Assembly: GCA_028281985.1 (NCBI GenBank)
Contig: JANQIU010000351.1
Span: 1 to 44,607, forward strand
Source: Alphaproteobacteria bacterium
GTDB lineage: Bacteria > Pseudomonadota > Alphaproteobacteria > DSM-16000 > Inquilinaceae
DNA length: 44,607 nucleotides
Direction: 5' to 3'
The notes beneath the pieces are model-generated. The model searched no databases and was not told the origin of the DNA. It worked only from the letters and a program-made list of their open reading frames with translations. Positions 33,565 through 35,004 of the stretch are shown here, piece after piece (the first letter of the stretch is position 1; each line of letters begins with the position of its first letter). The position numbers and the translations under genes are program-made.

Positions 33565-35004
33565 CTAATCGAGCGTTGCGATGTAGGCCAGAATGGCCGC
33601 GCGATCGCTCGCCGAGTCCAACCCGTCGAACCCCATAGTTGTGCCGGGCACCAGCGACCGGGGCGATCTCAGAAAGCTATCCAGAACAGCATCGCTCCAA
33701 ATGCCCTCTGTCTCCGCAAAAGACCTGAGCGCTGGCGAGTAGTACTGGAAGCCGTCGTCAGAGGCGATCGGACGACCGACGATGCCGGCCAGGCTGGGGG
33801 CAACGGTGCTATCCCTGGATGAGGCATGACACAGGGTGCACTGCGCAAACAATTGCCGACCGAGTTCCACGGGGTCCTGCGTAGCACTCCCCGAAGTTGC
33901 CACGGTGTACCTCGCCCGCAAATCCAAGAGCTCTGCCAGCTGCGCCTCCGACAGCGCGTCACGCACATTCAGCATCGCCATTGCCTGCGACCAGGTCATT
34001 CGCGCCTCAATCTCGCCGACTGCCCCGCCCAAATGCTGAACGGCCTCTGCATCGATTACGTCACCAACAAGGGCGACTTCCAGCACGCGCATCAGCTCTC
34101 CCCGAATAGCGAGAAACTCGTCAAACGCCACAAGGTTCTGCTGCACGGCAACATCCAACATCCGCCGTTGATCGGGCGTGAGGATATCCAGCACCTCTTG
34201 GGCAACGGCCCCACGCCGCACGCCATGGCCGGACGCAAGGCGGAGGCTGACAAATCCGAAGTGCTGACTTGGTTTACCTACGACTTCGAAGTCGTTGAAC
34301 TCCGGTGACCCGGTCGTCCAACTCAGCAGACGCGCCGCAAGATTGATGAGCTCCTGCCGATCCACATCCGGCAGTCTGTTGCGATTGCCCGAGCGCGGGA
34401 TTGCAATCGGCTCACCGGCGGCATGGCCCGTGCGGATCAGCGCAAGTGTTGATTGCTGTTCCGGTGTCAGGGTCCCGGCGATCTCGCCAAAGCTTTGGGC
34501 GATAACGCGACCGAGTTCGGCCTCGGATGCACCATACGTGCTACCGAGCGCCAGGAACTCGGCCTCGTCGACGCGTTCCCCTACAAGGAGCCGTTCCAGC
34601 GCACGGTTCATCTGGATGCGCGCATCTTGCGTCTCTCGATACGCCGGTCCCTGTTCATCCAACAGGGCGACCAGCACATCGATTTGGGGTCCTTCGAGAA
34701 CAGCAAGAGTGTCACGCGCAACATGCGCCCGGGTCACGCTTTGCCCACTCGATACGCGCAGCGCAACGAAACCGAAGAAGTTGGCCATTCTGCCGACCGA
34801 TATATAGTCGTTATTGGCAGGTGTGCCCGTCAGCCACGTCAGCGTTCTTGACGCGACAGCAATCCGCAATTGTTGTTCGCCGACTTCGTGACCTGAAAGG
34901 TCGCGCAGTGCAGGAGCGCCGCTCTGAGCACCGGCTGGCACGGCCATTGCGGCGGCAAGGAGCAACCCAAGGAGGGCTGCCGGCGTTCGCAGAGTCGTTG
35001 GCAT
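33565..35004 (-). CDS. Secreted protein with duplicated helical domain fused to cytochrome c
   Basis: A 479-residue protein. Residues 1-26 are a signal peptide (cleavage after PAGA). Two related segments of about 140 residues follow: ~49-192 (LTWLTGTPANNDYISVGR, FFGFVALRVSSG, TLTPEQQSTLALI) and ~224-368 (LLSWTTGSPEFNDFEVVGK, HFGFVSLRLASG, DILTPDQRRMLDVAV). They share a start motif, a FGFVxLRxxSG core and LTPxQ helices resembling CpxP/Spy-like periplasmic repeats. Residues ~378-479 are a class I cytochrome c: heme motif CTLCH (389-393) and axial Met457 in PGTTMGFDGL. AAAGGA precedes the ATG. It stands alone; the electron partner is unknown. GC content is somewhat lower than the main operons. 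Confidence 0.82.
   Translation of the reverse strand: MPTTLRTPAALLGLLLAAAMAVPAGAQSGAPALRDLSGHEVGEQQLRIAVASRTLTWLTGTPANNDYISVGRMANFFGFVALRVSSGQSVTRAHVARDTLAVLEGPQIDVLVALLDEQGPAYRETQDARIQMNRALERLLVGERVDEAEFLALGSTYGASEAELGRVIAQSFGEIAGTLTPEQQSTLALIRTGHAAGEPIAIPRSGNRNRLPDVDRQELINLAARLLSWTTGSPEFNDFEVVGKPSQHFGFVSLRLASGHGVRRGAVAQEVLDILTPDQRRMLDVAVQQNLVAFDEFLAIRGELMRVLEVALVGDVIDAEAVQHLGGAVGEIEARMTWSQAMAMLNVRDALSEAQLAELLDLRARYTVATSGSATQDPVELGRQLFAQCTLCHASSRDSTVAPSLAGIVGRPIASDDGFQYYSPALRSFAETEGIWSDAVLDSFLRSPRSLVPGTTMGFDGLDSASDRAAILAYIATLD

Follow-up and report, generated by a model that had tools for sequence, protein, structure and literature searches.

The gene and its product

The window (the whole stretch of DNA analysed, 44,607 nt in length) carries on its reverse strand an intact ORF encoding a protein of 479 residues, at the position given in a first-pass annotation of this DNA (Table 1). 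From the N-terminus, the product consists of a signal-like segment, a pair of helical repeats and a cytochrome c domain of class I. The gene shows a dN of about 0.2 and a dS of about 2 (the latter near saturation), a synonymous excess of roughly tenfold, and a closer pair of orthologues gives a dN of 0.06 versus a dS of 0.57. Since synonymous changes far outnumber non-synonymous ones, the gene is under purifying selection.

Table 1. Features of the cytochrome-fused gene and of the protein it encodes, in window coordinates
Feature	Residues	Coordinates	Strand	Basis and remarks
CDS, 479-aa protein		33565..35004, stop included	(-)	ORF reading, orthologues, purifying selection
Predicted export signal	1-27	34924..35004	(-)	Basic start, hydrophobic stretch, AGA-QSG; sequence reading
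Repeat 1	47-198	34411..34866	(-)	Repeat-versus-repeat alignment, profile comparison
Module 1	47-92	34729..34866	(-)	TWLTG...NDYISVGR..NFFGF...R..S; outside Spy-type match; 15/46 positions invariant
Core 1	93-198	34411..34728	(-)	Helical; LTxxQ-type sites 103-107, 179-183; Metal_resist/LTXXQ match
Repeat 2	218-368	33901..34353	(-)	Repeat-versus-repeat alignment, profile comparison
Module 2	217-265	34210..34356	(-)	SWTTG...NDFEVVGKPSQHFGFVSLR..SGH..RRG; 20/49 positions invariant
Core 2	266-366	33907..34209	(-)	Helical; LTxxQ-type sites 275-279, 351-355
Class I cytochrome c domain	378-479	33568..33873	(-)	Closest to c552/c550/c2
Haem attachment motif CTLCH	389-393	33826..33840	(-)	C389, C392, H393 invariant
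Predicted axial haem ligand, Met457	457	33634..33636	(-)	Invariant

The C-terminal domain had been read as a complete class I cytochrome c with a CTLCH motif and an axial methionine, and this is borne out. Its match to Pfam Cytochrom_C (PF00034) covers the C-terminal 100 residues (E 2e-4, 22.9 bits against a cut-off of 21.3), and C389, C392, H393 and M457 are invariant in 18 sequences. A PDB search with the domain retrieved c552 at E 2e-16, the closest solved relatives being c552-type carriers, such as the c552 seen in complex with arsenite oxidase (8ed4). The genome from which the window derives also has genes of the cytochrome c assembly family PF01578.

Duplication of the helical region

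The proposal that the region in front of the cytochrome is duplicated is confirmed. Residues 29-205 and 206-375 share 34% identity across 152 residues (BLASTP E 9e-22), none of 5000 shuffled controls scored as high as the repeat-versus-repeat comparison (z = 26.5), and profile-profile comparison of the two repeats, using profiles made from 19 orthologues, gave a probability of 99.9% and an E of 1.2e-33. The WLTGTP/SWTTGSP-, FGFVxLRxxSG- and LTPxQ-type motifs on which the proposal drew are present in the protein, and the reservation attached to it, that the two segments might lack significant mutual similarity, does not hold.

Both repeats have the same build, an N-terminal module (about 46 residues) and then a core (about 105 residues). 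The modules follow a common pattern, in which W-x-TG is succeeded by G-K/R, FGF, then R, S and often H, and finally R. They contain 35 invariant positions of 95, versus 17 of 209 in the cores (Fisher p 4e-9), and the invariant fractions of the two modules (0.33 and 0.41) compare with 0.15 for the cytochrome. The strongest constraint in the protein is on these modules, which lie beyond the stretches that match Spy-type families; a search for a known domain corresponding to the N-terminal module of each repeat found no match.

The cores carry two L-x-x-x-Q sites per repeat, at 103 and 179 in repeat 1 and at 275 and 351 in repeat 2. The glutamine is kept in 17-18 of 18 sequences, while a strict LT is found only at 179 and 275. 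There are no cysteines and few histidines in the repeats, and the cores lack a conserved Cys/Met/His cluster. The tandem domain is acidic (pI about 4.9), and the AlphaFold model of the helical part is a confident one (pLDDT 85, pTM 0.85).

Similarity to Spy, CpxP and Metal_resist proteins

The helical repeats had also been likened to Spy/CpxP proteins, a comparison that applies to the cores and only in part. Among 13 members, Pfam Metal_resist (PF13801), a family that takes in ZraP/CnrX-type proteins, matches the cores of 12 (best E 2e-9), and LTXXQ (PF07813) those of 9. The planctomycete orthologue at locus L017 scores 34.1 bits against PF13801, over the gathering cut-off of 29.2, but the window protein itself stays under the cut-offs of both families (19.5 to 22.3 bits for PF13801; 21.2 to 23.0 bits for PF07813, cut-off 24.3). 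Sequence profiles gave no significant match to Spy in the PDB (E 0.5-0.7 only). When the two-repeat model was compared with the PDB by Foldseek, Spy was absent among the 50 matches listed (best E 0.08); the matches listed for the tandem domain were only generic helical proteins, and the 50 listed for the whole model were only cytochromes. The cores thus have the look of distant relatives within the Spy/metal-resistance group, membership being unproven because the window protein scores under the cut-offs and the fold search gave nothing.

Distribution of the cytochrome-fused family

A family scan using one genome per species gave 20 loci, in marine alphaproteobacteria and other bacteria: Hyphomonadaceae, Rhodobacteraceae-type bacteria, Tateyamaria, Roseibium/Labrenzia, Geminicoccaceae, Vibrio, Granulosicoccaceae, Planctomycetota and a MAG labelled Nitrospiraceae (Nitrospirota). 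The tandem domain joined to cytochrome c occurs in 18 further genomes, 17 of them with a gene that is intact in the alignment, plus L014. Within the window's class the architecture was seen in 1 of 385 sampled genomes (the window's own), and it is rare. A candidate for a second member in this class (L025, E 5e-4) was rejected, as it is on the strand opposite a gene that, judged by its sequence, is O-acetylhomoserine sulfhydrylase-like.

Three of the genes do not read as intact. In that of Vibrio methylphosphonaticus (L014:8001-9404) a conserved Trp codon reads as a single in-frame TGA, reflecting either decay or a sequencing error, and that of a Granulosicoccaceae MAG (L022:8906-11466) is interrupted by an IS66 element, close to whose ends lie imperfect inverted repeats of 34 nt. 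The gene at L023 is cut by a contig end.

Relatives of the window protein were not found on viral contigs, and the plasmid matches listed involve only the cytochrome c part, with the exception of one Chlorohelix gene that belongs to the sister family described below. A conserved operon partner was sought among the loci of the cytochrome family and not found. At L020 a response regulator, a histidine kinase and the gene follow one another in that order, the sole such locus in this family. The first-pass annotation did not recognise the architecture, and our searches agree: no entry describing a tandem domain with cytochrome c was found in Pfam, NCBIfam or the literature searched, and the family is apparently undescribed.

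Sulfatase-fused forms

At three loci in planctomycete-type genomes (L017, L019 and L021) the tandem domain and cytochrome c run on into a formylglycine-type sulfatase, giving a single chain of more than 930 residues. PF00884 was matched in the two that were scanned, L017 and L021 (E 2e-45 and 3e-36), L019 also matches the L017 sulfatase, and a C-x-P-T/S-R site can be read in all three. Among solved structures, the L017 sulfatase is closest to the kappa-carrageenan sulfatase S1_16 (9fo1). Only 3 of the 18 aligned family members carry this domain, and the tree is compatible with either a single or a multiple origin of the fusion. The window protein ends after the cytochrome, without a sulfatase domain, and its genome has no match to the L017 sulfatase at E 1e-10. 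A sulfatase as the general partner of the family was rejected on the lack of a match in this and several other genomes.

A further sulfatase of the L017 genome (44% identical) is preceded instead by two Lcl_C domains and EF-hands, so that such sulfatases take various N-terminal partners. The Lcl_C/EF-hand form of this sulfatase type is encoded at L074:1866-4781.

A sister family without cytochrome c

Profile searches revealed a sister family of tandem proteins that have no cytochrome c (L026, L053-L061 and L063, excluding L058, which is a plain Spy-like gene). They come from genomes sampled in the phylum to which L017 belongs and in the class of Vibrio comitans, and from the Chlorohelix plasmid. 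By hhalign, the similarity between the two families extends along the full length of the tandem region (99.5%, E 1.7e-22). In a tree of the repeats, which bears on whether the duplication is older than the split of the two families and carries a long-branch warning, the repeats pair within each family (support 99/95).

Metallophosphoesterases adjoin the sister-family genes at L026, L053, L055 and L057, and PEBP (YbhB-like) proteins are fused to them at L059 and L060 and encoded nearby at L026, L054 and L063. At L026 and L061 a regulator and then a kinase lie upstream, in the same order and orientation as at L020. An arylsulfotransferase-type gene (L055:3-1097) lies upstream of a PKD-containing sister-family gene, at a distance of about 3 kb.

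Possible function

The interpretation we favour, tentatively, is that the window protein is a redox-coupled periplasmic binding protein or enzyme, in which a tandem ligand-binding domain is combined with a built-in cytochrome. It would be exported to the periplasm as a soluble protein carrying a single covalent haem c, its two Spy-like repeats packing within the chain, plausibly in the manner of a Spy-type dimer made as one polypeptide. The modules, with their many invariant residues (K, R, H, S, W and FGF), may form a specific ligand or substrate site, the ligand probably being a metal or an anion, for instance an ester of sulfate or phosphate. The cytochrome would exchange electrons with the bound material and either pass them on to the respiratory chain or receive them from it. 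In the three sulfatase-fused relatives, the sulfatase on the same chain would act on the same material. A specific site is favoured because the invariant residues sit in the modules rather than the cores, and electron exchange because a cytochrome is attached; built-in cytochrome mediators are a known arrangement in other oxidoreductases (PMC6472588).

This interpretation is supported by the two Spy-like LTxxQ-type sites per repeat, the confident helical model, the likeness of the cytochrome to c552-type mobile carriers, the PF01578 genes, the sulfatase fusions, and the metallophosphoesterase and PEBP neighbours of the sister family. Counting against it, a second redox cofactor site is not recognisable in the repeats, given their lack of Cys and few His, and the sister family works without a cytochrome. 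The scarcity of sulfatase fusions and the absence of a similar enzyme from the window's genome also weigh against it, as does the failure to find a conserved neighbour pointing to the substrate, or a solved fold matching the two-repeat model.

It is unlikely that the protein is a metal or envelope-stress sensor, in which the tandem domain would recognise a metal or stress signal in the manner of ZraP, CnrX and CpxP and signal to a two-component kinase, with redox or gas sensing contributed by the haem. Metal_resist is the best Pfam match, and the regulator-kinase-gene order recurs in both families, but two-component genes stand beside only one cytochrome-family locus, the cores have no Cys/Met/His cluster that is conserved, and the Met-His ligation of the cytochrome is typical of carriers, not of sensors. 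For the sensor-like character and metal binding mentioned in the first-pass annotation, the sole support comes from two-component genes next to one orthologue and to two genes of the sister family. It is likewise unlikely that the protein is an ordinary electron carrier of the periplasm, with a tandem domain that only docks it to a partner enzyme or to the envelope: the cytochrome is indeed an ordinary c552-type carrier, and in the sister family the haem-free domain stands next to other secreted proteins or is joined to them, yet no conserved partner gene was found, and modules more conserved than the cytochrome would be unusual for a mere docking part.

Spy has two LTxxQ motifs and forms a cradle-shaped dimer (PMC4791398), and its client surface is positively charged (PMC8144458). 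A single-chain, ATP-independent chaperone of the Spy type, with the cytochrome keeping clients reduced or sensing oxidative stress, is less likely again, for although the paired LTxxQ-type sites and the weak LTXXQ/Metal_resist matches suit it, the acidic tandem domain contrasts with that surface, a promiscuous chaperone leaves the invariant modules unexplained, and the match to Spy itself is not significant.

A more far-reaching interpretation is a long shot. Here the tandem domain with its FGF modules would be the founder of a new periplasmic substrate-binding or catalytic class for compounds bearing sulfate or phosphate. Electrons would go straight from the bound substrate to the cytochrome, and the sulfatase-fused forms would act as single-chain desulfating and oxidising enzymes.

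The protein defines a domain family that is absent from the libraries searched, with a highly conserved site, found in distant phyla and joined to cytochrome c, sulfatase, PEBP and PKD parts. The ligand would tell whether helical scaffolds of the Spy/metal-resistance type became binding proteins or enzymes coupled to redox chemistry, and could reveal a new oxidation step in the periplasm, perhaps one by which sulfated polymers of marine origin are used.

Comparison with known systems

Like Spy and CpxP (PF07813), the window protein appears periplasmic and all-helical in its repeats, a window repeat and a Spy subunit each have two LTxxQ-type sites, and the cores give a weak profile match. It differs in having two repeats in one chain, each with an extra conserved module, in being acidic and fused to cytochrome c, and in giving, within the present searches, no significant sequence match to Spy and no Spy fold among the matches listed for the two-repeat model. 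Metal_resist proteins are similar in that the repeat cores of nearly all members match the family, L017 above the cut-off, and dissimilar in that the window protein falls under it and metal ligands are not evident. With the class I cytochromes c (c552 of Paracoccus and Pseudorhizobium, c550 CycA, c2) it shares the fold, the CxxCH motif and the Met ligand, at about 31-39% identity to the bacterial members in structural alignments; unlike these, the window's cytochrome is the C-terminal domain of a larger protein. The C-terminal domains of L017, L019 and L021 resemble S1 sulfatases, the solved ones nearest to that of L017 being the kappa-carrageenan enzyme and GalNAc-6-sulfatase, but are fused behind a tandem domain and a cytochrome.
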